From the NCBI GenBank assembly GCA_034670405.1, contig JAXDDX010000004.1:3826001-3890000 (forward strand): a stretch of 64,000 bases of DNA, given 5' to 3'. The stretch is from Hoplostethus atlanticus. Taxonomy: Eukaryota; Chordata; Actinopteri; Trachichthyiformes; Trachichthyidae. Made by a program: the position numbers and the translations under genes. Below are positions 28,455 through 62,661 of the stretch, piece after piece. Every line of letters starts with the position of its first letter. The stretch's first letter is position 1. The notes under the pieces were generated by a model. The model had not been told where the DNA came from. It saw only the letters and a program-made list of their open reading frames with translations, and made no database searches.

Positions 28455-30237
28455 ATGATCGGCACTCTGTATTTCTTAGCTCTGCTGAGCTCCACAGTGG
28501 CCTGGGGGGTATGTATGACATGACTCAGATTCATTCAGTCATCGTTGTAGCCTCTACAGACATTGTAGGTAAATTGACCTCTCTATCTGTCCCTTTCTCA
28601 GCGTGTCAGCCTGTGGGGTGAGGGGAGTGAGAGGAATGGGACACAAGGTGGAGGTGGGGACAAGTGTACCTGTGATGCCTTCTTGCCTAGTTCCACCACC
28701 TTTCCTTTGAAAGACCTGGTGCTGGTAGAGCAGACTTCTGTGGAGATCTCCCACAAACTGGAGCTGGAGATGGGCAAGGTAACTGAGACGTACTGAAAGC
28801 TTCTGCAATAGGTGATAAGCAATACAAGACAGACCAGCAAAGTGTGTTATGACTTTTAAACGTACTTTATTTCAGCTGGAGACCTACGAGAGCAAGCTGA
28901 CAGCATATGCGGAAAAGATTATAACCTTGACAGTGGAAATAGAGAAGATGGAGAAGAACCCTGACTCATACAATCAAGCCAACTTTGTGGACATAAAGGT
29001 AGAGATCAAACAAGTAGAGGCTCTGATTGTAGAGCTCCAGGCTTCCATTCAAGGCTCCACCACTGTCTTCCAGTCTCTGCGTGTACAGGTAAGTCTTAAA
29101 CTGCTCTGAAATGTCTTGTCTCTGATTCATCATCAATATTTTATGACGATGGTCCATTGGATGCTGTGTTCGCTTTCAGATCACGACCATAGTTGTGACC
29201 CTGACCAAGCTGGAGAAGACTTATGACAAGAACCTGGTTCTGGTGACCCGCCGTGAGTACATCAAGCTCCAGCTGCAGCTAGAGGAGTGCGAGAGACGCC
29301 ACCAGGAGCTCTTCAACCCCAACATCGGTGAGACCATTCACACTGTAGTACACATCCAAGTACCAAGCCCTCTGCACACTCTTCTAACTCTGTACTCACT
29401 TTTTCCTCAGGGTCCTGTGCACACACGGGTATAATCAGGATCAGCAAGCCCATCGTCAGCCAGCTGAACGCCCACCTAAATGCTGGTTACAAATATGGAG
29501 GTTGGGGGAAAGATTCAAAGCCTGTTCCTGGTAGTGAATCTATGTACTGGTACTCTGGGTATAGTAGTGGCTCCATTGTCGACATTAGACTCTACACCAA
29601 CTACAAGAATCTTGTTTTGAGAAACCACTACCAGCATCACAACTTACACAGTAGCTGGATTGGTACAGGGAACAATTTCCTTATTCGTGACAGTACTCTG
29701 TATTATCAGTTCAACAACCCGTTTAGCATGGCCAAACTGAATTTCACCACAATGAAATATGAATACAGGGTGGTTTCCAAGGCTAGCCCCAGATTCTCCT
29801 ACACTAACTCACCCAATCAGAACTTTGACTTTGCTGCTGATGAGACCGGGCTGTGGGTGACTTATGCTACAGAGGAGTCCAGTGGTCGACTGGTTATTGC
29901 TAAAATCAATGAGCCTTCTTTTGGGATAGAGGAGGAGTGGCAGACTAGTGTGTACAAACCAGGAGTTAGCAATACCTTCATGGTGTGTGGGGTCCTCTAT
30001 GCTGTTAGGACTGTTGATATCCAAACTGAGGAAATATTTTACACGTTTGACACCAAAACCAAACAAGAAAGCTACATCCGTATTCCCTTCGAGAGGTTCC
30101 AGGAGACCTTTTCCAACCTGGACTACAATCCCACTGACCAGAAGCTCTATATGTACAATGATGGCTACTATGTTAACTACCATCTGTGGATGAACCACAC
30201 AACAAAAGCCATTGAATCACCACCCCTCTTGGAATGA
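28455..30237 (+). CDS. olfactomedin-4-like secreted glycoprotein, copy 1
   Basis: Five exons: 28455-28508, 28602-28778, 28876-29088, 29180-29327 and 29411-30237, in phase, giving 472 residues. Exon 1 is a signal peptide (MIGTLYFLALLSSTVAWG). A conserved CxC ('KCTCDAFLP') follows, then a coiled-coil region (exons 2-4, for example 'LETYESKLTAYAEKIITL'). The last exon is the olfactomedin beta-propeller: 'YGGWGKDSKP', 'FDFAADETGLWVTYATEE', 'MVCGVLYAVRTVD', 'TEEIFYTFDTKT', '[19 protein letters not shown]'. OLFM4-type proteins are secreted, form disulfide-linked oligomers and bind lectins or cadherins; in mammals OLFM4 marks gut crypts and neutrophils. The C-terminus ('LWMNHTTKAIESPP') differs from that of copies 2 and 3, which end in SYxVxFN. 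An orthologue name is not assigned because three tandem copies exist. Confidence 0.92.
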
Positions 30238-30539
30238 TCATGACCTGTGGTCTACTGAAGGATCACAGCTTATGAATGAAACACCAATCACTGTATCTCT
30301 CACTTTATTTCTTGTAGTTGATGTAGTGCCTCATCTATCTCTCATCTACTTGATTGATAATAAATTCTTTCTGAAGCATTATAATTTTGTCAAGTGTTTC
30401 CTTGTACAAATCCTCATGAAATTGAGTGCATTTTTTGAGTTTCTAAAGAGTAAAAATGACAACATACACTCACTCACTTATCTATTGTCCTGCACTTTAG
30501 ACACTTTAAGGCCACTCTCATTCCCCTTTCACATTCATT

Positions 30540-30765
30540 CACCCATTACCATTCTTTAACTCTGTATACATGTACCATCTATTCATTCGCTTTTTTATTT
30601 AATTTTTTAGTATTTAGTTTTTAGGCCTTTGTTTTTTGTATTTTGTATTTTGTACCTTGCCTTTGTATTTTGTACATTCTTGTGATACTATTATGCTGCT
30701 GCAACCCCAGAATTTCCCCCCGAGGATCAATAAAGTATCTATCATCATTTATCTAATTCTACTGA
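30540..30765 (+). mobile_element. LINE 3' tail
   Basis: 'CTGCTGCAACCCCAGAATTT' followed by CCCCCCGAGGATCAATAAAG and short TATC repeats is the conserved 3' end of a widespread fish non-LTR retrotransposon (CR1/L2-like type). Only the tail is present. Confidence 0.65.
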
Positions 30766-31884
30766 AGGTCTTATCTGCATTTAAAGTACAGCAGCAGCTG
30801 TGGTGCCAAGATTGTCCCACTACTGGCTTTGTTTATTTCACTGGGTTCAAGATTTTTCTCTCTCACATTAATTGACTGAGCTCATGATACAAAGACTGAT
30901 ATTATGTGACAGTATTCACTTTTGAATCTATACATGGTGTGTTTGTAATGGTAAAAGTTGCTTTCATTAAAAGAAAATAGTTAGATAGTTATGATGGGAT
31001 GAGGAACTTGTAAAAGGTCTATTTTTTATTTATCAGTCCAAATCTTCTATGAATCTCTGCTTAAACATCCATGCTCAGTTTGTCCAAACATTCTGGGTAA
31101 GGGCTTTAATACAGTGGGGTCCAAAGGTCTGAGCCTACTACCAAGAACTTATCAAAAACACAATGTTTTACAACAGTAATACCACAGTAGTGATTAATTA
31201 ATAGGGTACTCTATGTGCATAGAGGATGTTATAGGGGATAATCATTTAGTCAATATCTGGTTGGTAAAATATCAAAAATAATTCACACTGTGTATTAGGA
31301 GCGTACATGTGTTCATTTTTAATAAAATATATAGTGTGACAACAGACAACAGAAAACTTACCAAATAGTAAAAGATATTCAGATATATATCAATTTCATA
31401 TGGACATTTCTCACAGATCTAAACATTAGGATTTGTATCAGTTCTAAATTCTTGAATAATAAAAGTATCAACTGAGTGAAGAAATGTATTAGTTTTTGAT
31501 AAATGAATAATTAAAATATGAACTAAATAAATTATGAAAACAATTATATACATGTATATAATGTAGTGCCATTTAATGTTTCATTAAATGTTTGACTAAT
31601 GTAAGCTGATACATCAATATGGACAAATACATCTAACTGACACTTGTACCAGTGTCAGTAAAACACGTCTGACTGTGGGTATGACAGTTAAACGCAGATA
31701 ACAGCCCATAAATGACAACATATGACACTTTTCTCATGTTCACATCGTCACATCATCCGGAGGAGTTCTCAAATGTTATCACAAGCAAACAAGAATAATG
31801 CTCAATCATACTTGTCAATAGACATCTGTGCTTCTCTATCAGTAACTAAAGTAATAACTATGAGAAGAGGGAAGATGTTTGTGA

Positions 31885-31907
31885 CGATCTGATAAGAGTT
31901 GTATTTA
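31885..31907 (+). promoter_or_regulatory. GATA motif plus TATA-like box of olfactomedin copy 2
   Basis: CTGATAAGAG (about 31889-31898) is followed by TATTTAAA (about 31902-31909), roughly 60-75 bp before the ATG. The same CTGATAAGAG with similar downstream bases recurs upstream of copy 3 at 35411-35420. Confidence 0.5.
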
Positions 31908-31965
31908 AAAACCCGCTGACAAGGCCACCGGGGAGACATTTGGAGTTTGACAGGTAAACTGAGAC

Positions 31966-33687
31966 ATGACGCTTCCAACTCTCCTGCTGCTCCTACCCGT
32001 CCTCAGCCCTGCTTGGGCTTGGATAGTAAGTGACTCTCTCAATTCCAATGATTGTCATCCATTACAATCGATTAAAGTGCTGATTAAATCTTTGTTTGGC
32101 CAGCCACTGGAGGACTGGGGGTCTGGCAATGTGAATGCGTCTGTGGGTGAGTCTGGTCAGTGTGTTTGTCACGTGTATGTGCCGGACACCACCTTCCCTG
32201 GCGACCGGGTTCAGCACATGCAAGAAATCACAAACGATCTGATCCTGGAAGTGGAAATCCAAATCAACAAGGTACTGTAGAGCTTCTTAAAACTATCTAG
32301 ACATATGCTGACCTATTTATTTTTCACAATGATAACCAAAAGTGTGTCTCCTTCAGATGGTAAGCTACAAGGGTAAGTTGGAGATCTTTTTGGGAGAACT
32401 GACGGACCTGACCGTGAGAGTGGCCATGCTGGAGAGTGATCCTGACAACTACATCAAACTGGACTTTGAGCTTCTCAGGATTGAGCTGAGGGAGTTTGAG
32501 GTTCTGGTGTCCCAGCTGAAAGAGTCCCTTAACTCCTCCTCACCCATGTTTGACACTCTCTACACTGAGGTAAAGGAACAATTTAGAGGCAAGGTATAGA
32601 GGCTTACTGCATTAATGGAACAGTAGGATTTTTTTTTTCAATTTGGGGTCTGTTTTTTCTTAGATTCACAACATGAGCCTCATTGTGGACCAACTGGAGA
32701 CCTATGACAAGAGCAACCTGGAGGTGATCCGCATTGAGTTTGCTAAACTGCAGAAGAAACTGGAGGCGTGCCAGAAAGAAGGGGGCGTCATCAAGCCAGA
32801 TCTCGGTAAGGCCCCCTAGCCAGTTGATAGTGCTGGACAATAGTTGAGAGTAGAGATGGACAGTCAATATCAACGTTTTTCTTCTCTTCCCAGGCAACTG
32901 CAATCACACAGGCATCACCAGTATCGGCAAGCCTACAGTCATGCAGCTGAATGCTCACTTGAATGCAGCTTACAGATTTGGAGGCTGGGGAAGAGACTCC
33001 AAACCTGTTCGAGGCCATGAATCAATGTATTGGTATGGTGCATACAGCTCTCCCTCAGTGTACGACTTCTATTTGTACTCTAATTATGATAAACTGATCC
33101 TGAGGTCCTCGTTCAAACACCACGACATACCAAGTGGATGGGAAGGTACTGGAAACAATTACATTGTTCACGGTAACACCATATATTTCCAGCACAACAC
33201 TCCTTTCAGTATGTCTAAACTGAATCTGACCAGTTCCAAATATGACTACAGGGTGATCCCACAAGCTAGTCAAAGGTTCTCATACAGTTATTCAGCAAAC
33301 CAGAACATGGACTTTGCAGCTGATGAGAAAGGATTGTGGGTAATGTATGCCACAGAGGAAGCCAAGGGCAAAATCGTCATTGCTAAGGTAGATGAGCAGT
33401 CATTCGGTATTGAGAATGAATGGAAAACCACTGCGTACAAGCAGTTGACAGGCAATGCTTTCATGGTGTGTGGCGTCATGTATGCCAGTAGATCAGTAGA
33501 TCTGAAAACAGAGGAGATCTTCTACTCATATGACACCAAGACCGGGGAGGAGAAACACCTCAACATTCGCTTTGAAAAGTTCCAGGAGAATTATGTCAAC
33601 CTGGACTACAATCCCACCGACCAGAAGCTCTACATGTACAACAACGGCTACTATGTTTCCTACAGTGTGAAGTTTAACAAAAAATAA
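31966..33687 (+). CDS. olfactomedin-4-like secreted glycoprotein, copy 2
   Basis: Five exons with the same architecture as copy 1: 31966-32025, 32104-32271, 32357-32569, 32664-32805 and 32894-33687, giving 458 residues. The signal peptide is [19 protein letters not shown]. '[16 protein letters not shown]' holds the CxC. Exons 3-4 form the coiled coil. Exon 5 is the olfactomedin domain with '[19 protein letters not shown]', '[18 protein letters not shown]', '[14 protein letters not shown]', '[15 protein letters not shown]' and a terminal '[12 protein letters not shown]'. Poly(A) signal AATAAA is at about 33815. From exon 3 to the 5' part of exon 5, introns included, it is almost identical to copy 3, while flanking parts are clearly diverged. 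Secretion and oligomerisation are inferred from the family. Confidence 0.93.
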
Positions 33688-35475
33688 GATGTCTCCTCTT
33701 TGTGATCTGCCGTATTGTGATTGATACGATTGATCAATATTTACCCTCTTTGACGTTGGCACTTACATCAACACACCAACACATGTATCCAACCATGTCT
33801 ACTGTCTTTTCCTTAATAAAATCAAACTGAAGCATTCAAATCATCTTCGTTTTCTATTTTCTTATAACAAAGTGTATAATATTAAATTGTACAAAACAGT
33901 TTTTCATGACTGCAATGAAGCAGATTCAGATCCAGAAAATGATAATAACAAAAAACAAAAGCAGAAAATGATGTGTAAAATCCAATATAAGTTGCCACTA
34001 CAGACACAACAATAAATGCACACATAAATACAGAATCCAGTGATTGTACTTGGCTTCAAATTACTCTGAGGCAGAGAGAGCAGTAGGAGAGGGTGAATCC
34101 TACAAGTAAACAAGAGTGTGATCAATGTGACTCCTTATGCTACTGCTACAGAGCTTCAAGATGGGCGTTTTTGCTCCCTACTGATTGGACCGCTGACTTC
34201 CACAGGAAGCGTAGAAAAACTGCTGCTGTGAAGTTCTGAAACTCAGTCACAGGACATGATGATTCAAAGATAGATTGCTTACTTTGACACCTGTTCACTT
34301 TTCAGTTTTTCCCCAAGTACTATCTTGCCTCTGATTCATTTTCATCCCAACTGCCACAGCTGAATGCTCATAAATACATAAAAACTGCAAAACGGCTAGA
34401 AAGAAAACTTTAAGACTATAAGAAATCAAGAGTCTGATGATGTTAACAGATTAATTTGTTGTCAAAGGGGAACAATGACTACTGTATTCAATGTATTCTA
34501 AAACCCTTCAAACGGCGTCAAGTGAATGAACAACTAATAGTTTCTGCTGTCTTTTGCCGCTGTGGTGAAATATACAGTATACGTGTCTACTAACATTCAT
34601 CAAACCAACGATCCAAGCAGCTCAGCAGCATGGTGCTTAAAGTATCTCTCAGGTCGTAGTTTAGTGCTCAACATCATAAACGTGGGTGAGACCAACCATT
34701 TGGTGTGCAATTACTGTAACAAGAGATAAAGTAAGACCTAACAGTGTGTATACACTTCAGAAGCAAAAGCATCTCCACTTTCGCACATCACCACTCGGTT
34801 ACATGTGTCAAAGCAATCAATTGTTCTTTCAAAGTACTCTGATTTAAAGTCTGAGACCGCTTCATGTTTCAAAACCTTTTATATTGAATGCCAACATTGC
34901 ATTATTTGTGTGCCACAAAAACCCACCAGCATTAATCTGTTTCCAAAATGAACTCAAATAAAATGAAAAAGCATTTTTACGTTCACTCATGCAGCTGGCG
35001 TGACTCTGGAGTGGCTGTTCAAAAAAAAGTAGTAAATTAACTCTGATAGGTGTGGACTTATTTCAACACAGTGATGACACAGTTTACTGTCTCAGAGTGA
35101 AATTAACAGTGTTTATTTTGATGTGTAATGTAAGAGAAACGGAGAGAGAATCCTCCTGATGAATGTACCTAGAAAACCTATCAGCACTTTGATGCATACT
35201 GTGCTCGTCCAAGTTTCTGTCAGTATGTACACAAAGCAGTTACTACCTAAAGTAGTAACTAAACTAAAACGTACGTAAAGATAAAATAGCTCGGGAAACA
35301 AATGAGAAGTCATAAAACTATACCCCTGATGCACTGGAGACATCTGCACTCATCTCAAGGAAGGTAAATAAACTGTAACTATGGGATGAAGTCATATGGT
35401 TTTGGTGAGCTGATAAGAGGTGTAAAACCCCACAGACCAGACTAGCAATCAGACCTACTGTTGGTTAGAGACAAA
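33688..35475. other. intergenic between olfactomedin copies 2 and 3
   Basis: After the 3' UTR of copy 2 no exon or repeat family is recognised; the sequence is AT-rich. The upstream region of copy 3 (CTGATAAGAG at 35411-35420) closes the interval. Confidence 0.5.
35411..35430 (+). promoter_or_regulatory. conserved GATA motif upstream of olfactomedin copy 3
   Basis: CTGATAAGAGGTGTAAAACC lies about 65 bp before the ATG at 35476 and aligns with CTGATAAGAGTTGTATTTAA of copy 2. No canonical TATA box is retained; TGTAAAA takes its place. Confidence 0.5.
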
Positions 35476-37660
35476 ATGCCGCCGACTCTACTGCTACTCT
35501 TCCCACTGCTGAGTCCTGCATTGGCCTGGCTCGTAAGTGGCTCTTCATTACAACATGAAGATGGAAGTTGAGTGACCATCTCCTTTGCAATATCTTATTA
35601 AAACCACTGTATCTGCTTGCAGCCCATGGAGGACCTGGAGTCAGGCAATGTGACCACGTCTGGTGGAGCGTCGGACTGTGTTTGCAGCGTGTATCTGCCT
35701 GACAACACCTTCCCTGCTGACCGAGTGCAACACATGCAGCAAGTCTCCAAAGACCTGATGCTGGAGGTGGAGATTCACATGAACGAGGTAGGAGCAGAAC
35801 AGAACGTCCTCTAGAAGAACATTCACAGCTACAGATTGTTTTGGGGGAAAAACAACCTTGTTGCATCCTGTTTGCATCAATCTGTTGTTATGTGGCTGTG
35901 CTGCCATTACAAATGAGAAATCACGTACGTATAATTGCATGGTGGTAATTGATTTGCAATATATAAGTTCATGGACCCCCCCCCCCCATGGACACTAGAC
36001 GTTACTTACTTACTTACGTTACGTAATGTGTCTAAATGCGTTACATTAACGCACACATTTACACGTACCCTTGCACATATATATGGCACATATTGTTTTT
36101 ATTTTATTGTTATATTTCTTATAATATCTTTTCATATATTTTAGTGTGAATTTTTCTATTTTATATTGTATTCTTTCTTTCTTTGCCTTACAGTACTTGC
36201 TTTTATTCTTGTTTTTATTGTTCTCTTGCTATGTTTATTGTTATGCACCAAACACCAAGTCAAATTCCTTGTATGTGAAAACATACTTGGCACTAAAACT
36301 GATTCTGATTCTGATTCTTTTAGCTTGTCCACTACAAAGGCAAACTGGAGATTTTCCTGGGAGAACTGAATGACCTGACCGTGAGAGTGGCCATGCTGGA
36401 GAGTGATCCTGACAACTACATCAAACTGGACTTTGAGCTTCTCAGGATTGAGCTGAGGGAGTTTGAGGTTCTGGTGTCCCAGCTGAAAGAGTCCCTTAAC
36501 TCCTCCTCACCCATGTTTGACACTCTCTACACTGAGGTAAAGGAGCAATTTAGAGGCAAGGTACACACAACATAGAGGCTTACTGTATTAATGGAACAAT
36601 AGGATTTTTTTCAATTTGGGATCTGTTTTTTCTTAGATTCACAACATGAGCCTCATTGTGGACCAACTGGAGACCTATGACAAGAGCAACCTGGAGGTGA
36701 TCCGCATTGAGTTTGCTAAACTGCAGAAGAAACTGGAGGCGTGCCAGAAAGAAGGGGGCGTCATCAAGCCAGATATCGGTAAGGCCCCCTAGCCAGTTGA
36801 TAGTGCTGGACAATAGTTGAGAGTAGAGATGGACAGTCAATGTCAACGTTTTTCTTCTCTTCCCAGGCAACTGCAATCACACAGGCATCACCAGTATCGG
36901 CAAGCCTACAGTCATGCAGCTGAATGCTCACTTGAATGCAGCTTACAGATTTGGAGGCTGGGGAAGAGACTCCAAACCTGTTCGAGGCCATGAGTCAATG
37001 TATTGGTATGGTGCATACAGCTCTCCCTCAGTGTACGACTTCTATTTGTACTCTAACTATCATAAACTGATCCTGAGGTCCTCCTTCACACACCACGGTC
37101 TACCTCAAGGATACGAAGGCACCGGTAACAATTACATTATTCACGGTAACACCATATACTACCAGGCCGGCAACCCCTTCAGGATGTACAAACTGAATTT
37201 GACCACTTCTGTTTACAGTTACAGACACATCACACAGGCTAGTGGGAGATTCTCGTACAGCTATTCACCCAATCAATATCTGGACTTTTCAGCTGACGAG
37301 AAGGGATTGTGGGTAATGTATGCCACAGAGAAAGCCAAAGGTAAAATGGTCATTGCTAAGCTGGATGAGCAGTCATTCGGTATTGAGAATGAATGGACCA
37401 CTAATGCATTCAAGCCGCTACTAGGAAATGCGTTCATGGCGTGCGGCGTTATGTACGCCACCAGGCCCGGAGATCTCAATACAGAGGAGATCTTCTACTC
37501 GTACGACACCAACACGGGCCAGGAGAAGTACATGAGTATTCCCTTTCAGAAGTTCCAGGAGAATTTTGTCAACTTGCACTACAATCCCACTGATCAGAAG
37601 CTCTACATGTACAACAACGGCTACTATGTTTCCTACAATGTGAGGTTCAACCAAGAATGA
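35476..37660 (+). CDS. olfactomedin-4-like secreted glycoprotein, copy 3
   Basis: Five exons: 35476-35532, 35623-35787, 36324-36536, 36637-36778 and 36867-37660, in phase, giving 456 residues. The signal peptide is MPPTLLLLFPLLSPALAW. 'DCVCSVYLPDNTFPAD' keeps the CxC. A coiled coil and then the olfactomedin domain follow ('[10 protein letters not shown]', '[18 protein letters not shown]', 'MACGVMYATRPGDL', '[15 protein letters not shown]', end 'YYVSYNVRFNQE'). Intron 2 is 536 bp against 85 bp in copy 2; the extra length is a retroposon tail that runs right up to the acceptor. AATAAAATCAAAC at about 37791 matches the 3' end of copy 2. The family role (secreted, mucosal or blood-cell expression) is known for OLFM4, not shown here. 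Confidence 0.93.
36050..36321 (+). mobile_element. LINE/SINE tail in intron 2 of olfactomedin copy 3
   Basis: AT-rich sequence passes into 'ATACTTGGCACTAAAACTGA' and then three TTCTGA units, the usual 3' tail of a fish non-LTR retroposon (consensus-like CTTGGCAATAAA...GATTCTGATTCTG). The repeat ends two bases before the TAG acceptor used by exon 3. Confidence 0.7.
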
Positions 37661-44488: not shown

Positions 44489-46171
44489 TGGGTCTACCTT
44501 CAGCCCTGATCCCTCTGCTGCACAGGAGGAGAAGAGGAGCCTTCCCCAAAGCCCCAGCGTCCTCATGTGGCCAAAACGGATGCAGGCCCAGATCCCGGCT
44601 TCCTTTGCACTGTGCTTCCCAAAGAAAAATGACACAGTAAATACTGAAACCAGAATGAAACCAGTGAACCGAGTCCCTTCAACAATGTGTAATGAATGGG
44701 TTTGTTACTTCCACTTATCAAAGAGACTCTAGCCTCTTAATATAGGAACTGAAAGTAACTTTGAAGCAGCTTTGACATTATTGTTACATTGTACAGTAAT
44801 GTATCCATGCATATCAACTTCATTATCACCATGCATGAACACGGATGCCTCTTCTTGAATATTGACCATTATGAATTTTTGGACTGTCTGCCAATGAAAA
44901 TATAGTTGTCAAACAGGGGCATTAGGCAATAAAAAAGTACCTCTTTTGTGTTTCCCTGATATTCTGCTCTGGGTGTGTGTCTTTGCATGTGAAGATTAAT
45001 CTCATCAACAAGCCATGGTCCTGGGGAAGATCTGAAACCATTGTAATTTTATCACTGGAAATATAGATTTCACACTTAAACATTGTTAATATGTTGTGAT
45101 CTTGGACAGCTATGTATACAGCTAAGTATACAGTAGATTTGTGAACATGAATTTCTCCCAAAGCTAAACCCAGGTGACTGCTGACCATTTAGAGGAAACA
45201 AATTTTGCAGGAATATGAACACATTTTCTGGCTGCAGTTGTTGGCACTACAACAAATACTGAGTCCATTAAGCTCTGCTCTCATCTCATCACTGTGAAAA
45301 GGTTTTATCTCATGACATCACATGACTTTTCTTGGCCCTTCGGTTTGTAGCTTTTGGAGATGCTTGCGTTCATTTGTACCGAACTGTCTTAGATCACTGG
45401 AACATGAATTTTACTTCAGGATGGGGTCTGACATTTACGTATGCTCGACTCCAAATAATTTTCATCTTCTTCTTACATATTTCATGTGTCAAGTGAACCA
45501 ATTTTGGGGAATGGCAAAAATAATTCTGTTACATCTATGTGTTGGATCTATTCTTATAATCTCAGCTAGCCAGAGTGCCTATTTGTAAGCAGGCTGGCAC
45601 AAACAGCAACACTTATGTTGAGTAATGCAGCTCAGGTTTTATTGTTTAAAATGTTTTAAATAGTCACTTTCTTACACAGCATAAAGAGAATTATCCTCAT
45701 TTGTTGTTGAACCAGATGACAAATGCTCAGAGGAATTCTTTACTTAGGACATCTTAGGACATGTTTCTTGGTTTGTAGCCCAACTTGGGATAATTGTTCT
45801 TCTCTCACCAAAAATAATGAAATGATAATATGCAGTTTAGCTAAGTTTGCCATTCATCTCACAATAAGTTGAAAATTACTCCGTTGTATGTAGAAAATGG
45901 CATATGGCGCACATGAATTATACAATATCCTTTTTGATATAGAGACCAGTACCACTGAAACCCCAATTCACTCTCCAGAATAGCACCAAACCTTTAATTA
46001 TTTCCAGCCATGCAAAAGTCCAGTGCACACCTCACTTTCTCTCCAAAAATCCTTTTTTCTAGTTACCAATACAATAATAAATCAATTGCCATTACAGTAT
46101 GTTCATCCGCAGGGTACAGCCACTGTTTGCAAAGGGCGGTTTGTTTGTTGGGGCCTGGAGGTGCCAAGGGT
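44489..46171. other. convergent 3' ends of rps6kl1 (+) and dlst (-)
   Basis: The rps6kl1 poly(A) signal is at 44928-44933. A minus-strand AATAAA (complement of about 45637-45642) can serve dlst. Between them no gene is recognised. Confidence 0.5.
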
Positions 46172-49100
46172 TCACATGTCCAGGAGCAAGACTCGGGGGT
46201 CCTCCACTATTGACTTGATCTTGCGCAGGAAAGTGACTGCCTCTCTGCCGTCAATCAAACGATGATCGTACGTCAGGGCAACATACATCATGGGACGGAT
46301 TTCCACCTGGAGGACAGGAGGTGGTTGAGACAAGTTTAGAATGCGCTCAGCAAGTATTCTGTTGCTAAATGGGTTGCTAAATGTCTGTATACGGCTGTGT
46401 CTTGGCATGCTGAACATAAAACAAGCATATGCACGTTAAAATTGCGCAATCAAGTTGCGCAAACACAAACCTTGCCCCCGACAGCAACAGGCCTGTCAAA
46501 GATACCATGCATGCCCAAAATGGCAGACTGTGGGGGGTTGATGATAGGTGTGCCGAACATGGACCCAAACACTCCACCATTGCTGATGGTGAAGGTTCCT
46601 CCATCCATGTCCTCAACAGCCAGCTCGTTCTTACGGGCCTACAAACAAACATCCACAATATCAAGACATAAACATAAGGAAACTGCTTATTTGACTTTAA
46701 AATAAATAAATAATATAATATATATTACCTTTTCTCCCAACATATTGATGGCCTTCTCAATGTCGGTAAAGTTCATTCCTTCTGCTCCTCGGATTACAGG
46801 AACCACCAGGCCCTGAGAGAAAAAAAGTCAAAAGTCACATGACTGAGCTTGCTAGCTGTTACATTAGCGACAAGTGAACTATTAAGTACCGACACACAAC
46901 ATTACTGTCTACGTTTAATTTGTTTGTCTTACCTTTGGCGTGGCCACAGCCACACTGATGTCAACATAGTCCCTGTACACAATCTCTTTGGTTGTGTCAT
47001 CAATTACTAAACAGAAAAAGAGGGTGCAAAACATGTACATTGAATAAAAGGTCTGTACACACTGTAAAATCATCCATCATTACTTTAGCCCACAAGATTC
47101 ATTTATTTAATGCATGTATCATTTTCTGTTTCGTGCAAGTAAGCTGTGGGAGTTCAACCACGGGCTATTTCAGATGTTTAAAACCTAGCAGTAAAGACGA
47201 GCCCTGCTTCATTGTGGTTAGTCTAAATAGGTCAGGTGGTATCGGGGGAGTAAATAAGTCAGTGTGAGGTTTTGAGGCTTTGCAATGGAAGATACTGAAG
47301 CCTAAAATCATGTTCTTCACCACATGTTCTTCATACATCTCTAATGACTTGACACCACACATGTAGAGCCATATTAAAAGATCACAAACAGGGCTCTCTC
47401 AGAGCTGTTATTTAAGGTGAAATCCATACCAGCATTGACAGCGGGTTGGTCGACCAGTGCGTAGGCTGCAGCCTTCACAAACGCAGACATGAAGCCCAGC
47501 TTGATGTTATGCTTTTTCAGGAAGGCGTCTTTGTAAGTCTTCCTCATCTCTGTGATGTTGCTGTGGAGTGATTGCAACAAAATTAAAACATGGGCCAATA
47601 AATAACATTTCAATGTGAGTAATGATGCACAAACAGGGTCAAAGCCCACAGGAAACTAGAGCATGGGCTGTTTTTGTAACACTTTGGTTAATATTCTTGA
47701 CTTTTGAATTTAATAGTGGTTCTGACAAAAGATGAAAAACTAATGAAAACTAAACCAGCCAACTAGAGTACCAAGATGGGGGTTTAAATACAAATTCACA
47801 CAAACATAGAGAGTAAATGCTTATTAGGAGGCATTTATTTCCTAGTGCAGCTTACTCTTACTTTGAAAATCTGCATTTGATCACAATGAAACATAAATTT
47901 CATGTTCATGTTGTCTGTCATATATGAGGGTCAATCATTGTCAATTATGTACACTACTTGAAACTGGCTACAGATATTTGAGTAATATTCTCGAAATGCA
48001 TTTTCAAAATGGTTACGGGTTTGTTGTGTGTACAATGAACAACTTCTGAACTCATGTTCATTTAAAAATGCTATTTAATTGAAATATGACAATCTATGCT
48101 CTATGCTTAGTTTTGTAATCCATCCTTAATAAATGGTGTATTTAGCATTATTTAAGATAATTCGTATTTTATTGTTAACTATCAAATAATTAAAATATTT
48201 TTGTCTTTTAACAGTTTATTAAGGATTAGTAGATGCCATACATTATTTTATTTGAACATTATTTATTTGAACATTAATATAATAAAAAAAAGATATATGG
48301 TAACATAGCTGATAAGAGATGATAACAGCTTTCTGATTACGTTAGTATGATTAACAAATTATTTGTAAAACATTAATAAACATTTTTTGGGTCGCTATTA
48401 TAAAGTTGCAACTGATGTTTCCTGTAGTTAGTAAATGGTTAATGTGCCTTTGTAAAGCATCAATACACACTATTTTAGCCAACTTGGGGGTCTTCTTTCC
48501 ACTTTGGGATAATAAACATTAAAACAACGACCATGCAAAACGGAGTATAGCACCCACAACAGTAAGCACGCCAGCATAAATCACCAAAGCTGGGAAACAA
48601 TAGCACACTACTGAAATACGGATTAAATAAATGAAGCTTCAGGGTGCTTCAGGGTATGTTGTTGTTATAATAATAATAATAAATTATCATTTATTAAGGA
48701 TTAGGTTACTGTTACCAATGGCTCTTGTTCAAGTTGTATTGGTATATTAAGCCTCTCTGTGAAAACCTTTAAATACTGTAATCATTTTCTTTGAAATACA
48801 GGTGATACATTTCACATCATTTTCAAGAAAAAAATATATGTTATGGCTAAAAAATAAAGCTGGTACAGGTCATGGTGAATTAATGCTATTGACATTGGCC
48901 TGCTAATCGTTTCACCGTTGCTCACCGTTCTCTTGTATCTCTCTTTTTAATTGTTTGTTTTCCTGTCTCTAATCCTGTTGAAGCTCTAGGGTTTCTCCGC
49001 TAACGTAATTAGCCCCTCCCAAGACACACACTCTCCGAGAAAGGAGAGAAGAAGCGATAAAAATCTTCACTTTCTGGAGCCTGTAAATCTTATTGGGCTG

Positions 49101-52100
49101 TCATAAAAGCCCATATCGGTTGAGGCAGCTCTCCCACTCAGAGCGCAGGTCTCTGTGGGCCCCTGCAGATGCTCCAGCCTCCTGCTCTGACTAGCTCCTT
49201 CGGCTCCAGATGAGCCCTAGCCTGGGAAGTCTTCCTCCAGACCGTCAATGTCAATCTAATTAGGATACACAGAAAACCCTGAATAGCCGAAAGCTGACAC
49301 CACACATTTGCGGGGAAAAGAAATCCTCAAAGTGTCCTCTTCAGCACAGGGGGCAAGCGCGGACAATAACATTTCCTTGTAAATTAATAAAACCTGTTTT
49401 AACAATTCTTATCTTCGTTTTAGATGGCATTACGACCAAATATTTACATTCCAGTGTGTAAGAGGCTATCAGGTTTCAAAAAGCTTTTCCTATTGGGCAG
49501 ATTCCAATCTATAACCATTTGCGCCAGTGTTGTCTCAACTGTTCACACTTAAAACAAAAAGGGAAAAAACGCTCATATTTCCTAACTTTTCCACATAGAC
49601 TATCTTCTTTTACATTTTTCAGATACTTATAAAAAATATTTTTTATTCGGCTTAAGATTTCCAGACTCTAGTCCCTGTTGTAAATGTACACATTTTTACC
49701 TAATGGGTGTTACCTCAATGTAGTGTAATGTAGCAAGACTCATTGCCAATTTAACATCTCGAATAGTGTTGGTGGCTTGATATGTAGGTCAGCTAATCTT
49801 GAATTTCCTACCTCATGTCGACCTCATTAAATGTAGTCAACATTGCGCAGGTGTTCTGGGCTTCCTTCAGTCTCTGGGCGATTCTCAGTCTCATGCGGTT
49901 AATCTTAACCTGATGGACAAAATATAAGAGTGATAAAAAATGTCAATAGAATAAATCTTTGTCAACCGTTTTGCTTTGTTACTTCTGTTAACTGTGTAAC
50001 AAATCCTAGCCACTATCACATCCACCTTAACATAATTTGGATCATTTTTGCATCTTACCCTGCTCTCTGTCCTGGCTGCTTTAGTCCCTCCCTCTGCCTG
50101 GGCCACCGGGGCAGCTCTAGCAGCAGTGGGCTTGATGGCTGAAACTATGACAAAGAGGTGAAGAAGCTGTTAGTATCCCTTAACAGCAGTTTAGCGACAA
50201 GCCACTGTCTACAGAAAGAGGGAAAATGATTTATCATGTTCCCTAGATCAAGAGAACACACAGGTCAAGCCAAACACTTCTCACATGACACAGACCGTCT
50301 GTCTGATGACAACTAACCTGGTTTGGTGTCCATAGCATGTGCTGGCACAGGTGGCACCGGGGGCATAGTGGTGGGAACGGGGCCCACAGCCGAGGGGGGA
50401 GGAGGGGCAGCAGCAGGTGGTGGAGGGGCTGCAGCAGCAGGGGCCTCGGCTTTTGGAGCCTCTGCAGCTTTTGGAGCGCCAGCTAAGGGCACAGAAGTGC
50501 ACAGATAAATTAGTGAGAAGCACAGATAACTAACTTTAACATTTCCTTCTTTTCAGTACAAATTCAGTTTTACAAACCTCCTTTCCGAAGCTTGAAGAGA
50601 GGTGTTCCTCCCTCTACTTTCCCTCCATCAGGGATCAAAAGCTCCTCAATCACTCCAGAAGCAGGAGAGGGAACCTGCACTGATGTCTAATGACCAGGAA
50701 AGGAATAAATAAAATTAAATTGTAATTATTGCTTGTTTTGGATGGCAATGCAAAAAGTGCTTGGATGTTTGTTTACTCAAGTATGGCTGGATTTCATTTT
50801 GCCAACCAAACTGCTAGAATTCCAATGTGTGCAACCATTTATTTAAGCATAGGCTCATGTAACATCTTGAATCAATGTTTATGTTAGACAACAAAATTTG
50901 ATAACAAAAAAAATAAATATACACTGTCAGAGGGGAGGTTTGGAATGTTTACTGATTAGGGGACAAAGCAACATGCACAAATTATTTTATTCCTCTAGTC
51001 TGGGAGGCTTTGAACTTCCCATGCAAAACCCGGCTATTACCAGTTAGCACAAGCACAGTTAGTGTGTATGACATTAAATTGGCTATACCTTATCAGTCTC
51101 AATTTCGCACACCACCTCATCCTCAGCGACAGTGTCTCCAACAGCTGTAAGGAGAGAACACAGTTTCGTTGCTCAAGGGTCTTTTGTTTAGATATGCTGC
51201 GATGAGGCAAATCTCTGTTTAAGGTAACTAATATCTGAACAGAATACAAAATTACCTTTTTCCCACCTCACGTCCCCCTCTGTGACAGATTCTGCAAACG
51301 CAGGGGTCTTGACTGTGACAACTTCATTCCCTAGAGAACAACGACAAGAGAAAGCAAATGGGTTGATCACTCCATACATCAGTGGTGACGTTGCAAACTG
51401 AGACTATTAATTCAGACACAAGGGTAAAATGAAAGGCATGCAGGCTGATACATACCGTATGCTACAGATGTCCTGAAGTACTGGATTTGGAAGACACTGG
51501 ACCGTGGATCACTTTTACTGAAGATAAAAACACAGACAGTCAATAGAACTAAGGTTGAAGAATGGCTATCCATCCAAGTATACTGAAAAGAGTAAAGAAT
51601 AATAAGTTCACTCTGACTGTTTGGCTTGCATGTGCCATGGCACTGTCATGCCAAGGTCACACGCCTAGTGTGTGTGTGTGTGTGTGTATTGCCACATGCT
51701 CCATTTAATAAATCATTAAAATTATACAGGACGACTGGTGGACAGAGATGCTGATAATTGTAAGACAGACATGTGACAGTGTAAATGTGACAGGGTAATG
51801 AAAGTGATAGGAGGACGAGACAATTTGTGAGGCACAATGATTGCCTCAAGACTTTCCATGACAGCAAATGAATGACTCGTCCATCAGATCTGTGGAGTGA
51901 AGGGCTGTCAATTGAATACTCAAAACTCTCCTTACGAAACTACTTTATCTCTACAAAGAATATGGCGTTTGGTGTGTGTAGTACTTACACATTTTTGTTG
52001 AGAGTGATAGCATGGCTAGCAGACAGAGCTGAGGGTAACATGACAAGAGAAGCATGTGACTGACTTCTCAGAGAAGGATTACTCAGAAGCAAAAGGTCAC

Positions 52101-54161: not shown

Positions 54162-55974
54162 GTAAGATCTCAGCAGTGTTGCTCGATTCTCTGAAACAGG
54201 GGGACCATGGGAGGGTGTCACTGTGCATGCCTGCAGCTCGTTTTAGTGATATTTGATTAGTGAGAGGCTTCATTGGTTAATGTTTTTCCTACTATGATTT
54301 TTGTATGATTGGCAAAACAAAAAATAACATTAGTTTTCCCCCGCATAGGCCTTAAGGCAAATTGAGTTCCTCAGCTCAAATGTTTCAATTGTGTTTTTTA
54401 ACAATCAAAAACAGCAATTGTTTTTGTTTCAGTGGATTATCTATGACTTGAGTTCATTTTTGTAAAGGTATCAGGTCACATGGTTAAACAGAATAGCCTG
54501 TTCATTCATTTGATATAGTTCCACATATAAATTAGGGCTTAATTTACAATAGTTGAATACTGGTTTCCATCTTCGGGAAGTGGGCATCAACTAATTCATC
54601 ATTTTGCCTTTTACGGAAATAAACTGTAGGCCTATGGGCTGTTGTCTTGCAGGGAATTTTAAAAACCTAATAGAGTTGTAGAATAATGAGATTATATATT
54701 AATTCTCATGTAGCTTTACAAACAAATCATACGGTATTTTACTTTCACTTTTTACTTGATATTCTGCCAAGGCAATTACTTTAAAATTGCTCTTACTGAT
54801 TTTATGTTTATTTTCCATCTTTCAAACAGGAAAAAATAGAAGTTGGTCTTGTTGATTTTTGTGAATTATTGAAATAGAATCCACTGCCTAACTGAGAAAT
54901 GTAAAGTTTTGCCTGCTTTAAAGTATGAGCACAGCAAAAATAAATATAAAAAAAAATCTGAATGCTCTTTTTCTCTGTTCAGACATTATAATTGTAAGTT
55001 ATCATTAAAGATGGATATACCAGCAGCTTCATAATACATTTTTAAATGGGTGTCAATAATGCACTTGTAGCCCATTGTGTGATTCAGTATATCTAATAGA
55101 ACAGCAAAACTTGTACGCTCTTAAGGGGAATGGAGCCAGTGACCATAGTATTACAATCATTACAATCATTACAATCAAGGTCCATGAATCCATGAATTAA
55201 GTACGTTGTTTTTTTGTTTTTTTGTTTATCAGTTTTAAATCTGATCATTGAACCTGTTAGTCATTCATTAAGGTGAAAAGTATAAAAAGATGAAGAGATT
55301 TTCATGATACTTTCACTTGTTAATAATGTATGTACAGTGCCGTTTCTCATCCATGGTCTTTTCCTTTCATGTACTGAAATTTACGATTTATGGGTGTACC
55401 ACAAATACTCTTTTTATCCTTTGTGTTAACCAACATTGTGAACTGAAGGTGAAAGGATACATAAGAAGGCATTCCCTTATTCCTCAAGATCATGGAAATT
55501 TATTTTACAAATCTGAGGATCTTTGACATTCCAAACTATGAAGATAATTAATAATGTTGCTTGCTAAAGTAATTGTTATAATACCACAAAGGTAATTTCA
55601 AGTTTTCTAGATGAAATGACAGCATTGCCTGTGAAGGTTATAACCACTAGTTTTTTTAAATCTTTTTACAACTTAATATACTTCTTCATTGCTATTCCAG
55701 GCATAAAGAGCTGCTACACATTGCTTTTAAAATGGTATTACTGATAGACAGATAATGATGAAAGCAGATATTCAATAGATGAACAAGGAAGGGGGCTGCA
55801 CTTCTTTTTTTAACTTTCATGTTTCATGTTCATTATGTTTTACCTTACTTTATTTATTTTATTTATTGTGTTACATTGTGTATCAGATTAACGCTGTGTT
55901 GATGTTTCTTACTTTTCAGATTCTTACATTTTGCCTACTCTCAACCGAAGCCCTAAACAGTGTTCTCATTGAGC

Positions 55975-58900
55975 ATGAACCTCAGCCTCCCTGACCAGAA
56001 CATGCACAACCCCAGCGAGGGCTGTCTAGAGGACGACAAACCTGACCTCATGATACCTTGCTTCCGGAGAAACATGTACGACGAGCCTCTCGCCTCATAC
56101 TCCAACGGATCCATCATCTCGCAACTCCTCCGCAAGACCATCCACAACAAGAGGGCACTAGATGAAAGCCATTTCTACCTGTCCAGCTCCACCATCGCTG
56201 ATTCCGGCCAGGAGGATCAGAGCAGTGTCTCCTCAAAGGATAGCATGGCGGAAGCTGCCTCCCCCAGCTGTCACCTTTCTACAGGAGCCAGCCCGGACGG
56301 GGAGCGTCCCCTGAGTGATCACCTGCAGGCCAAGAGGGCCAGAGTGGAGAACATCATCAGGGTCATGGCAGGCTCACCCAGCAGCAGGCCGCATGGAGAC
56401 AGTGAGAGGTCTGAGACAGATGCCAGAGAGGCCAGAGAAACCAGGGAGACCAGAGATACCAGAGAGACCAGGGAAGCTAGAGAAGCGTACAGGGAGAACA
56501 AACGTAAACAGAGGTTGCCTCAGCATCAGGAGCACAGTGTTGGAGGCCCGGCAAACAGAAGAGCTGGAAGCAGTAGCAGTGGTGGTGATAACTGCAGCAC
56601 AAAGGATGAGGAGTGTCACAAGCTGAAAGAGCAACTCCACAGCATGCAAAGGCTCCTGCGGCAGCTCCAGGAAAAATTCCTTCAGGTCTACAACAAGGAA
56701 GATCCTGAACACGAAGACAGAGATGAGACAGCAGATGCCGTAGAGCATGACAACCTGGTACAAAGTACAGAGTCTAGCCACATAAACAATGAAGATTATT
56801 TTGAGAGGAAGTACAACAGGGTGACTGCAGAGTGTAAGGACAGAATGAAGGTGGAGGGTTATCTGGTACACCAAAGAGAAGGCCAGAACCTACAGGACAC
56901 TCTGAAGCAGGAGCTCTCCAGGGCTGTGAATGAATGTGTGGATAAGGTGTTCAAGAGGGTCTCTTCCACAGCGTTGGACCTGTCCCCTCAGCAGCGCATG
57001 TGCCCATCTCCAGAGATGCAGCTCAATGTGGGTCCAGACAAGAGGAGCCAGCAGGCGGGTTGTGCCCAGGAACAAGCCCACAGCTGAGGAGGCCACAGTC
57101 AAACCCAGGCCTCTGGAGTACTATGAAAGCACTGAGGCCCAAAGCCCACAGGACCAGACAGAGGCCCTGTCACTAGTGGTCCGCAAGCCGGCAATGACCC
57201 CTCTGAGCTCAGTCACCCCGACAGTGAAGAGGCCCTACCCTTTACACCAACCGCCATTTCAGTTCAGCTACAGCACCCCTCTGCATGACAGCCAGATCCT
57301 GGAGCACCTCCTCAAGTATGGGCCCCACACCAACTTTGGGGGTCTCCCTTGCATGGCCCCATCAATGGACAGGACCTCCCCAGATTCAGTGGACCTGCCC
57401 TGGGACACCATCGCCATGAGGTCCAAGGTGACATCCAGCCACCTAGGCCACCACTCTCGTCCCAGCGCCATGGGCCCAGTGTCAGTTGACAACCTGTGTC
57501 TCCCTCATGTCAAGATGGAGTGCGGTGATCTGCAGAGCATGGCTGAGCGAAACCCCTACATATCTCTCAACATATCCTTTCACTTTAAAGAAAAAAGTTA
57601 ATTTGCTTTGCATTTTTAGATAATATCGTCTTGATGCAGGATTTGGCCACACATAGCTCTAGTAATGTTGAAATTAATAACCATCTTGTTTAATAGTGAA
57701 GTTAAAGTATAATACAATTTGACAATTTGTTTAACAGGTGTAGCTTTAAATGGGAGTAGTGTGAAAATGATGTCATTCTATTACTAAGTACAAATCAATA
57801 ATGAATGAATGACTACATCCATACAATTTTGTTACAAAATGATTCACCAAAAAGCTTAAAAATCTCAACTCACATAAAGAAATGAGAAATTAGCAGTAAA
57901 AATCATAAATGTATACTTTGATATAAAATGTTTTTATATTGTACTATTACAGTTGTTACATGGCATTTTTGCCAATAGTTTATAATATTTTCATTGACAT
58001 TTTATACAAACTCCCACTCTTTCAGCTCTTCTATTTGAACAATGGCTGGTTGAGGTTCAATGCAGCATGAGCAGTTCCACTAACAAACTTCAAGGAGAAT
58101 TTTTTCTTTGATCTCGCTAACCCCACAGAAAATTATAGCATCTTCTTTAATCTGAGCAGAGTAATGACTTTAAGTCTAGAAAAAGACAAATAAAAAGGAA
58201 TACAAGGCTTTGATAAGAATTGCCAGGAACAAAAGCCAATTTTTCAAAGGCAGAGAAAGCATCGGTTTCTGTTTCAGGAAGCGGACTTGAAAAGGTGCAG
58301 GATCTATTTCTCCGTCATCAGAGTGATACGGGTGCATCTAAAAGGTCACATCTGAGTGCTGGTGGAAACCACAAGTGCCTCCCAACCATAACACTTGAGC
58401 TCTTGTCTTGAGCATTTGTTGTTAGATACCTCTGTCCAGAAGGACGCTATAGAATTAGAGTACAACCAAACATATTTCACCATATATGTAGGAACAAGGA
58501 GAAAATCACTCCAGGACAAGGAGTGTTGTTCAGGATATGTTTTGACCACTGCTTGGAAGATAAATTATATTGTCCAAATACTGTGATTGCTGATGTCCAC
58601 AGTCAGTATGATTATAACAATATCTCTATCTTCATCATCCACATAGTTAAGCCTAGTCTTTTCATAGCTACTCATCATAGAGAAAATGATCCTAAAATAG
58701 TCACAGAAGTGCTCAGCGTTGTTGATTGTTTGTCGCAATGCTTTGGAGAGCAATATTATCTGCTGCCTCTCAGGATTCGCTTTATCTTTACAGTGCAAAG
58801 AGCTCTGCTTCTCTTTGAACAATACCACATAAATCTTTCATCCTAACTTCCTTATTTCAAAGGTATGGTTCCCTAATAAATGTATGGTGTGGTGTGACCT

Positions 58901-61900
58901 GATAAGGAAATATTATGACCTAAGGCATGGTTGTGGACTACAGAGAAAATACTCCTGAGCATCTTCATTGCCATGGGGGAAAAACTTGAGAAGGAATTAA
59001 ATATATTGATATTTGCAATAGTTGACTACGCTATCAATACATGGTTTCTCTACACCATCTAAATTATTTTAACTATATCAAATAAAGAAAGACGTTTAAA
59101 ATCATCTATAATTTAATTTTATATGATTTACCCAAATAAACACTTTGTCTGAAGAAACATATAATGCAACATATGTTGTCTTGAAATCAACTTAATTATA
59201 TCTGAAAATCAACTCCCTTCTTTCACAACATTTCAAAACAAGCCGCCTCAACTGCCAGGCATGAAGTGCTTTGCTCTCTAATTAAAAATCCCTAATCTAA
59301 TTCGTAATGCTGTTTTGCCAATAAGCACATGTTAGGGTCATTATTGACTCCCTGCTTAATGCCGAGCTGTTCTTTAGTGAAATTCAATTTGGCTGAAGAT
59401 TGAGGCAACACAATACTCTGGTCTACTATCACTTTGCACTGGACTGTATGCTGTGCGTTGTATCTAATTGTCAGGTTTTGCTGCCTTAACTTAAACGTGA
59501 ACATCCAGGAGGGTCTCACCCCCAACCATCTGAAGAAGGCAAAGCTCATGTTCTTCTATACCCGCTACCCCAGCTCCAATGTACTGAAAACCTTCTTCCC
59601 TGATGTCAAGGTACGTTATTGCACTGTAAATGCCTTGCACGGTTTATTTAACATGTTAAACATCCTGCAAAATTGTTTGTTCTTTGTTTATCTCCCCAAT
59701 ATCTACTTGTTGATGTATGGTGGGGACAGAATCAGCAGTGTGTCGGAGGAGAGAAACAAAGGAGCAGAGGGTTTACAATAACAAAGCCACTAAGCTGCTA
59801 GTATGTCCTGGGGGCAGAGGGAGATACAGAGGCATTCTCTCTTTAAAAAAGCCACTCCAGTCAGCAAATGGAGTGACAAAGGACTCTGTAGGCAAGGCAT
59901 TGCTATTGAGTGTCAACATAGAGTTGGTATTAGACTTGTGCTGCAGCAACCAGGCTGTGGGCTGTGAGCACTCGCCCTAACCACAACATCCTGTGTATTT
60001 TGGCCCTGGGTGCCTCCTCTCTTGTCTCCTTATCTATGCCCTACCTCTCCCGATTCTTCCTATTCATCTCTGCTTCCTCTCCTAATTCCTTTCCTTGCTC
60101 CTTTCCCATAGGTATCCTTACTACTTGTAACACATCTCCCCACACATCTCTCCTGCCTCCTTTCCAATATCCTTTCCACCTAGTTCTTCCTGACCACTTG
60201 CCTACGTCCTCTCCTGTCTCCTCTTCTATCTCTTCTCCTTCCACTGTGGCCCCGGACTGCTGGGCCACAGTGGGCCCCTGCCCCTCAATCTGTTCTGACC
60301 CCTGGGGTCAGGGGGGAGGATGTGGTTGCTGCAGCCTGCGAACGTCTCCTCCTTGCCTACAATCCAGTGGTGGGAAGTGGCACTGAACAAAAGAGGGCCT
60401 AATCCTGGTGTCTGATTCCATCCTATCAGCCCGAGTCAGTGAGAGGGAAGCTTCCTTCTGTCCTTACGCTGCCGCTTTCTCACCCACAACGCCAGAGAGA
60501 AGAAACGTCTTTGATGCCTGCCCAGCCCTTAGGCATTTTTTTCTGTCTTTCTGGATGAAGAGATAGAATAACAAGACTAATGTCAAGACTGAGTTTAGAA
60601 ACACAGAGCTCTGACAGATGTTTTTACACCGCGGACATTGGTGGGAAAAGATCAGAGCAATTAATGTTGAGTAGAGTGACAGACCAATAGGTGGCATTTT
60701 GCCCGATAGGTACTGAATGTCGGTTTTGAGTCACTTGTGGGAAGGGTTTCTCATACCAAAAGCATTCGAGTGTTGCAGACTGAAAAACAGAGATTCATGT
60801 TTTTGAAATGACTCAATATGTTCTCAACAAATTCTCAAACTCAAATGCTTCATTAATCACCAAAGGGAAACTCTCTTTTTGCCTGCCCTCCTCTAGGGAG
60901 GTCAGAGGTCAGGGTACGCTACAGAGCGCCACCTCTGGAACTGCTAGAGATTCAGTGTCTTGCTCAAGGACACTTCAGCAGAGAGGCTGCTTGTCAACAC
61001 AGGGGCTTGAACCCGGGGCCCCTTCCATTGAGGGACGATCTCTCTAACTTGTTTCTCTCCATTTCCAGTTCAATCGCTGCATCACCTCTCAGCTGATCAA
61101 GTGGTTCAGTAACTTCAGGGAGTTCTACTACATCCAGATGGAGAAGTTTGCCCGCCAGGCCATCGTCGATGGCGTCAGTGATGTCAAAGACATTTCCATC
61201 AGCAGGGACTCAGAGCTGTTCCGGGCACTGAACATGCACTACAATAAAGCCAATGACTTCCAGGTACGTCCCCCTCTTTGTCTTCGGTGCTCCTCATTTA
61301 ATCACTACTCACTGAGGCATTGTTGCATTACATTATTTCTCTTTCTGTAAACTTCTAATCTAGAAAAGCTACAAGTTGATTTTGTATTTATTCATTTTTG
61401 TCAAAAGAGTGACCAGCATGGAGGGTTTGCTTGAGTTGGGAGGATGTGGTTTTATTACTGATTTTCATCCCTCCTCCTCTCGGTGGTGCACCTTGTGAAA
61501 ATGTCTTCATTCTGCTTATAATTAGAGGAAGAACAGCATTCAGACTACACGGATGCAGTTTAGTGTAGCTTAACCAAAGAATCTTGTACTTGTTTATCTG
61601 GAAGCCTTGGAGCTGATTAGTACAGTAAAGAAACATCCGTTACAGTAGCAGCAGCAGGCCCCAGACCTGCCGAAGTATCTCAGACCTCCAGCATGTGGCC
61701 GTGGTCACACATGTCCTTGTCCTGACCTATGTGTCACGCTGCACCTGTGGCTGCCCAGCCTTTACAGCCATTATCTAAACTCCAGAGTGATGCTTTATCA
61801 AACTGTGGGAAGAGGAAGCCGCAGAATCCCACTAAAACAACTCGGGATTAGAGGACCAGTACGCCTGAGCGAGACTCAGATTGCTACTGATGCGGAATGC

Positions 61901-62661
61901 TGAGAAAGACGCTGTGAATTCCGAGGGAGAAGGCCGTTTGGTGGGAAAGAGACGAGACCGTTTTCTTTACCTTGGGACCAAGACATTCCTTTCCCAGGGA
62001 TGCTTTGTGTCGGGAGATGAGGGGAAAGAAAAATAACTTATGCCAACAACTGTTGTGTTAACTGGCCAATGGATGGGAAACAAGGGCAGCGGCTAGGGCC
62101 TTCTCCCAGCATCCCTTGCATCCAGACTCCATCTGTCGATCGGTGCTGAGAGGACGGGGTAAAATTCCTGGGAAGGTGGAGTGCTCTGGCTTTCCCAACA
62201 GCTGGTGTCGGTCCAGGAAAACAAGGCTAGCTAATCAAAGGGGCCCCTCATTGAAAGTTAATAATTCTAGCATTTAATTTATTGTACGTGTGAGAACAAA
62301 GAGATGTGCTCCCTTTTATCAGGAAGAGTGTTTGAAGAATTGCACTACAGGTCTTCATGATACATTTTTGTCTGAGAGTGAACCAAAGAGAGAGCACATT
62401 AGTATGGGTTGTGCCAAAGCATTCAATATACTCCTGTTTCACAATTACAATAAGGTTCTTCCTCCTCATCATCCTCTTTTCCCTCTTTTCCAGGTTCCAG
62501 ACAGATTCCTGGAGATCGCTGAAATCACCTTACATGAATTTTACAACGCCATTTCCACAACCAAAGATTCAGACCCCTCTTGGAAAAAGGCCATATACAA
62601 GGTGATCTGCAAACTGGACAGTGACGTCCCAGACGAGTTCAAGACATCTTCCTGTTTATAG
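55975..62661 (+). CDS. prox2: prospero homeobox transcription factor, prox2 type (large exon carries an apparent frameshift)
   Basis: Exons: 55920-57571 (ATG at 55975), 59503-59610, 61069-61263 and 62494-62661. It is a nuclear regulator binding DNA through the fused homeo-Prospero domain: '[19 protein letters not shown]', '[19 protein letters not shown]', '[13 protein letters not shown]', '[18 protein letters not shown]'. Upstream are '[16 protein letters not shown]' (basic, family-conserved), an Arg-Glu-Thr repeat, a Gln/Leu helix ('[19 protein letters not shown]') and '[18 protein letters not shown]'. The name prox2 rests on position beside dlst, as in human, and on the short C-terminus ('FKTSSCL' without the QELLHE of PROX1). 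The coding frame switches between about 57030 and 57087; one surplus base in the GGG at 57057-57059 would explain it, so about 688 residues are expected otherwise. The first coding intron has AT-AC ends. Poly(A)-like ATTAAA is at 63364. Confidence 0.9.
57572..59502 (+). other. U12-type AT-AC intron of prox2
   Basis: The intron starts ATATCCTTT (57572-57580), the exact U12 AT-AC donor consensus. It ends with CTGCCTTAACTTAAACGTGA then AC at 59501-59502, containing a U12 branch site (CCTTAAC) about 13 nt before the AC. Joining AAC to ATC restores the family sequence [12 protein letters not shown]. No GT-AG pair gives this junction. Confidence 0.85.
60875..61040. mobile_element. dispersed repeat in a prox2 intron
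   Basis: 'CAGTGTCTTGCTCAAGGACA' followed by CTTCAGCAG and 'GGGGCTTGAACCCGGGGCCC' is a very frequent fish repeat. The GAACCCGGG part resembles a tRNA-like SINE head in antisense. It lies within 30 bp of the exon at 61069. Confidence 0.55.

Follow-up and report, generated by a model that had tools for sequence, protein, structure and literature searches.

A predicted U12-type AT-AC intron in prox2 of Hoplostethus atlanticus and its subtypes among the Prox genes of the same genome

Introduction

Does prox2 of the fish Hoplostethus atlanticus carry, next to its homeo-Prospero domain, an intron of the U12 type with AT-AC ends, and is this the intron known from other members of the Prox/prospero family? 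The question is raised by a 64,000-nt stretch of the genome (assembly GCA_034670405.1, contig JAXDDX010000004.1, positions 3,826,001 to 3,890,000 of the forward strand), which we refer to as the window and whose numbering is used throughout. A first-pass annotation, made from the letters of the window, had proposed a U12-type AT-AC intron in a prox2 gene. The analysis described here indicates that the prox2 gene of this fish has very probably retained the U12-type AT-AC intron ancestral to the Prox/prospero family.

The intron is already in print for the family. Intron 2 of zebrafish prox1b is described as a U12-dependent AT/AC intron, in wording that extends to all vertebrate Prox genes (PMC2956630, in which Pistocchi 2008 is cited for zebrafish prox2), and the first homeobox intron of human PROX2 is given as AT-AA, as noted for mouse Prox2 too (PMC2211742). 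Drosophila prospero has a U12/U2 twintron, in which a U2 intron is nested in the U12 intron (PMC2831892, PMC8329584), and human PROX1 is listed as a plain U12 intron (PMC2831892, Table 2).

Results

The U12 consensus reads RTATCCTT at the 5' splice site and TTCCTTRAY at the branch site. On the + strand, the exon letters AAC are followed by ATATCCTTT, which starts at 57572 and agrees with the conserved 5' splice site, and the acceptor reads TGCCTTAACTTAAACGTGAAC/ATCCAGGAG, with GTGAAC closing the intron at 59502 and ATCCAG opening the exon at 59503. The CCTTAAC at 59484-59490 is part of the branch motif TGCCTTAAC, and the second A of this motif and the final base of the intron are 13 nt apart, which is inside the 11-13 nt quoted as the optimum between a U12 branch and its 3' splice site (PMC3584512). 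Pyrimidines make up 11 of the 20 letters before the AC acceptor (longest run, 4), compared to 17/20 and 20/20 in the gene's two GT-AG introns; the AT-AC intron has no distinct polypyrimidine tract, as expected for the U12 type. The letters and positions given in the first-pass annotation all proved correct, including those of an exonic CATCCAG/GAGGG with its AG at 59507-59508. Separately, GTATCCTT at 60112 and a perfect ATATCCTTT at 60167 lie inside the following GT-AG intron; these decoy U12 donors were partnerless in our pair scan.

Joining the exons at 57571/59503, 59610/61069 and 61263/62494 gives a protein with a homeo-Prospero domain (Pfam PF05044, HPD; 3.6e-89); this protein matched the human PROX1 structure 2lmd at 8.7e-86. 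The claim that the AT-AC intron splits this domain was inexact: the junction comes ahead of query residue 24, three codons short of residue 27, where the Pfam domain opens. The domain is split by the two GT-AG introns, and the AT-AC intron lies at its edge. It had also been claimed that this junction alone gives the expected protein. Six placements of the junction (-3 to +2) yield an identical mRNA, which removes the uniqueness at that level, and what stands is that AT-AC termini with a U12 donor occur in placement 0 only, with GT-AG ends in none of the six. Six AT-AC pairs were listed for the donor at 57572 in the ranges tested, and LN/IQEGL resulted from the 59502 end only. A study of intron sliding (PMC7730772) includes PROX2 (human/cow) among its cases lacking canonical sites; the six equivalent placements (57569-57573 / 59500-59504) suggest that such non-canonical PROX2 calls could stem from alignment ambiguity.

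The assignment of the gene to prox2 is supported by its divergent neighbour on the opposite strand, DLST (top PDB match dihydrolipoyl succinyltransferase, 7.2e-127). Zebrafish prox2 and dlst share one small interval (PMC4335124), and human PROX2 is located at 14q24.3 (PMC2211742).

The PF05044 profile, run against the genome from which the window comes (632.8 Mb in 1161 contigs), gave 15 exon matches, read as five Prox genes: the window gene, a gene on C102, a gene on C211 and two others on C11 (our labels). U12-type signals were present at the equivalent place in 5/5 genes, two with AT-AC and three with GT-AG termini (Table 1). All five introns were read as phase 0, each with CCTT[AG]A[CT] near its end, and their codon position is common: [I/T]QEGL follows directly in four of them, EGL in the C11 gene near 0.970 Mb. 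The acceptor of the latter gene lies 6 nt further in, at the AG that matches 59507-59508 of the window. Pyrimidines before the acceptor number 13-15/20 in the four paralogs.

Table 1. The intron ahead of the homeo-Prospero domain in the five Prox genes found
Gene	Junctions	Intron length	Branch distance (nt)	Remark
Window gene	LN/ATATCC..GTGAAC/IQEGL	1931 nt	13	
C102 gene	GG/ATATCC..GTATAC/TQEGL	101 nt	16	acceptor assigned by reading frame
C11 gene near 1.468 Mb	GSN/GTATCC..CTCCAG/IQEGL	3872 nt	16	
C211 gene	GST/GTATCC..GTCCAG/IQEGL	4715 nt	15	
C11 gene near 0.970 Mb	LN/GTATCC..TTTAG/EGL	547 nt	15	

The C11 gene near 0.970 Mb is probably a duplicate of the window prox2, because a second DLST copy (C11:977937-979788) adjoins it head-to-head, as in the window. 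The genes on C211 and on C11 near 1.468 Mb appear to be prox1-like. Two side observations concern these paralogs. The two DLST/prox2-like pairs are consistent with a duplicated block, and the C102 gene is a divergent fifth Prox gene; its next domain exon seems to be interrupted by an additional intron, and its 101-nt AT-AC intron (C102:1125535-1125635) is about half GT dinucleotide repeat.

Several observations weigh against reading the window intron as the ancestral U12-type intron of prox2. Its branch motif TGCCTTAAC opens with TG rather than TT, the fit of the branch motifs to TTCCTTRAY is 8/9 in four genes and 7/9 in the C11 gene near 1.468 Mb, and the branch distances of the four paralogs (15-16 nt) fall outside the quoted optimum. 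Over the whole 64-kb window, ATATCCTT was observed three times against 2.13 expected and CCTTAACN{8,20}AC four times against 4.90 expected; loose donor/branch pairs at most 5 kb apart numbered eight, while 60 random sequences gave 2.85 on average and 14 at most. The names of the paralogs rest on neighbours and local sequence, because a tree of seven domain rows, built without a PROX2 reference row, gave no resolution, with all four inner branches open. Lastly, the large exon upstream of the intron is open in two overlapping, unjoined frames, 55957-57087 (TGA at 57085-57087) and 56930-57601; the frame switches between ~57000 and 57087, and the window copy might not make the full protein.

The motifs by themselves are at chance level in the window and hence were not used as proof. 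Their frequency is what an intron of the U2 type with other borders, carrying U12-like letters by chance, would draw on. We consider such an intron extremely improbable: of the 4253 pairs in the ranges tested that are in frame and free of stops, only five were GT-AG, all with weak sites and an altered protein, and all four other Prox genes found show U12-type signals at this place as well. The case for the U12-type AT-AC intron draws its force from position: besides that recurrence, the joint chance of finding both signals exactly where the protein requires the junction is ~7e-7, as roughly estimated with a first-order Markov model over 41 places for the donor and 4 AC ends.

The broken frame bears on a further possibility, that the window prox2 is a decaying gene in which the intron has no functional consequence. 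We looked for a mini-intron able to bridge the break: in none of the many GT-AG pairs listed did both sites approach the scores of the true ones. Moreover, the large exon is open in the probable C11 duplicate, where a frame of 505 codons runs through the donor (in the C11 gene near 1.468 Mb, the open frame spans 686 codons). The domain exons of the window gene are nevertheless open and retain the match to PROX1 given above. In addition, assembly indels are a likely cause of the frame breaks in both the window gene and the C211 gene of the same assembly, because the large exon of the C211 gene is likewise spread over three frames. Assembly error, variant and decay are all possible explanations of the break itself, and decay of the gene with an inconsequential intron appears unlikely to us.

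The first-pass annotation had drawn a parallel with the twintron of Drosophila prospero. The statement on the fly gene was correct (PMC8329584), and a U2 intron nested in the window intron would give a longer isoform. One nested GT-AG pair that is in frame and stop-free was recovered in the ranges tested (57596/59405, adding 41 residues), and it is very weak: with splice scores based on rounded U2 frequencies, its sites reached -2.7 and -10.6, where the true U2 sites of the gene reach 5.3-5.5 and 7.1-9.4. The published record points the same way, since human PROX1 is U12 only (PMC2831892), the U2 sites of the prospero twintron are reported to have arisen early in insects (Janice et al., PMC3564746), and the table of 18 human twintrons in the same paper has no PROX gene. 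The parallel is thus unsupported in the window gene, and we regard a twintron here as very unlikely.

A second suggestion was that the AG at 59507-59508 might compete as an acceptor, which would produce isoforms with and without IQ if the AC at 59502 and the AG at 59508 were both used. Both ends are in frame, choice of the U12 3' site has been described as error-prone (PMC3584512), and the equivalent AG is the acceptor of the probable prox2 duplicate on C11. In the window gene, however, the AG lies 19 nt from the branch A, has 10/20 pyrimidines before it and ranks at the 47.6th percentile among the AGs of the window, and the AT-AG combination is said to be disfavoured for U12 introns (PMC3584512). 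Use of both acceptors is improbable on this evidence, and the AG is a weak site in the window gene. Its interest appears to be evolutionary, as the same position seems to serve the probable duplicate.

The features of the locus are collected in Table 2. The large prox2 exon includes a coding 9-base repeat (an RET/REA-rich stretch, 56423-56483).

Table 2. Features of the prox2 locus (window positions)
Feature	Position	Strand	Remark
Large coding exon of prox2 upstream of the AT-AC intron	55975..57571	+	ATG at 55975; final codons ..PYISLN; frame broken as assembled
Predicted U12-type AT-AC intron, phase 0, 1931 nt	57572..59502	+	
U12-type 5' splice site ATATCCTTT	57572..57580	+	
In-frame stop reached on retention, 9 codons into the intron	57599..57601	+	
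Branch-site motif TGCCTTAAC	59482..59490	+	8/9 to TTCCTTRAY
3' terminus AC	59501..59502	+	
Exon after the AT-AC intron; start of the homeo-Prospero domain	59503..59610	+	
Exonic AG, possible competing acceptor	59507..59508	+	equivalent AG is the acceptor in the C11 paralog near 0.970 Mb
GT-AG intron within the domain	59611..61068	+	
Coding exon	61069..61263	+	
GT-AG intron within the domain	61264..62493	+	
Final coding exon including stop	62494..62661	+	
DLST exons, divergent neighbour	46175..51172	-	basis for the prox2 naming

Another AT-AC-like pair on the + strand (45925 to 50198) overlaps the opposite-strand DLST and was taken as chance. Further open frames in the window gave a match to an MIT domain, a kinase match just below its cut-off and a vasohibin match; we take these frames to be RPS6KL1- and VASH1-like. 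Three look-alike open frames lie within 29332-37657, one of which (32854-33684) has a full olfactomedin domain (4.6e-72). Two of the three, 32854-33684 and 36827-37657, were compared and are identical at 712 of 831 letters, indicating a tandem duplication. An Rfam scan of the whole window at gathering scores gave 0 matches, and in a search for relatives in viral contigs six stretches fit a pattern, none of which was confirmed.

Discussion

The proposal of a U12-type AT-AC intron in prox2 is supported by the donor, the branch motif and its 13-nt spacing, the lack of a polypyrimidine tract, the continuity of the protein, the DLST neighbourhood and the paralogs. The window intron is an ordinary, well-anchored instance of a known conserved intron, and the match of its position to other species rests on published descriptions. 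The zebrafish prox1b report (PMC2956630) concerns another fish, and three of the five Prox genes found here are GT-AG, which places them outside the wording on all vertebrate Prox genes. By description, the intron corresponds to that of human and mouse PROX2, although its terminus here is AC and there AA. Drosophila prospero and human PROX1 (PMC2831892) share with it an AT-AC U12 intron in the orthologous gene, whereas we found no credible nested U2 intron in the window gene in the ranges tested. With regard to subtype, switching is a known process: Lin et al. report 36 clusters in which both U12 subtypes occur, and name Syntaxin-6 as one fish switch from AT-AC to GT-AG among the U12 introns conserved with fly (PMC2831892). 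A fish U12 subtype switch is common to both cases; the present, probable one involves Prox genes, three of five copies, and in one of them a 6-nt shift of the acceptor.

Dependence of the window gene on the minor spliceosome would follow from the type of its splice sites. U11 and then U6atac would pair with ATATCCTTT and U12 with TGCCTTAAC, and the minor spliceosome would remove the intron and join LN to IQEGL directly ahead of the homeo-Prospero domain. If splicing failed, the protein would end 9 codons into the intron and the domain would be lost, so that retention may lower Prox2. The sequence of a further fish thus has the minor-class intron of the family in prox2, and the output of Prox2 should accordingly depend on the minor spliceosome.

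Across the paralogs, the position of the intron appears to be kept while its subtype turns over. AT-AC is likely the ancestral state of the Prox intron, because the cited papers place AT-AC in fly prospero, in human PROX1 (U12, same subtype) and in zebrafish prox1b, which the zebrafish report extends to all vertebrate Prox genes. The three GT-AG copies of this one genome probably arose by subtype switching, in one case with a move of the acceptor onto the exonic AG. We lean towards the view that the five paralogs hold one ancient U12 intron in both of its subtypes, with the tandem AC/AG, 6 nt apart, as a stepping stone. The tandem would be fixed by the IQ codons ahead of EGL; a change of the donor's first A to G, as in the probable prox2 duplicate, would shift splicing to the ready exonic AG at the cost of two residues. 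The two prox1-like copies would have taken a contrasting course, in which an AG stands at the old acceptor place.

The intron itself was already known, and the variation of its subtype among the paralogs of this genome is a modest new observation. If the stepping-stone proposal is true, the Prox genes would offer a natural series for testing the co-evolution of the first and last intron letters in the minor spliceosome. With its two AT-AC and three GT-AG members, one of the latter with a shifted acceptor, the set of paralogs makes a compact case in which U12 subtype switching after gene duplication can be tested directly.

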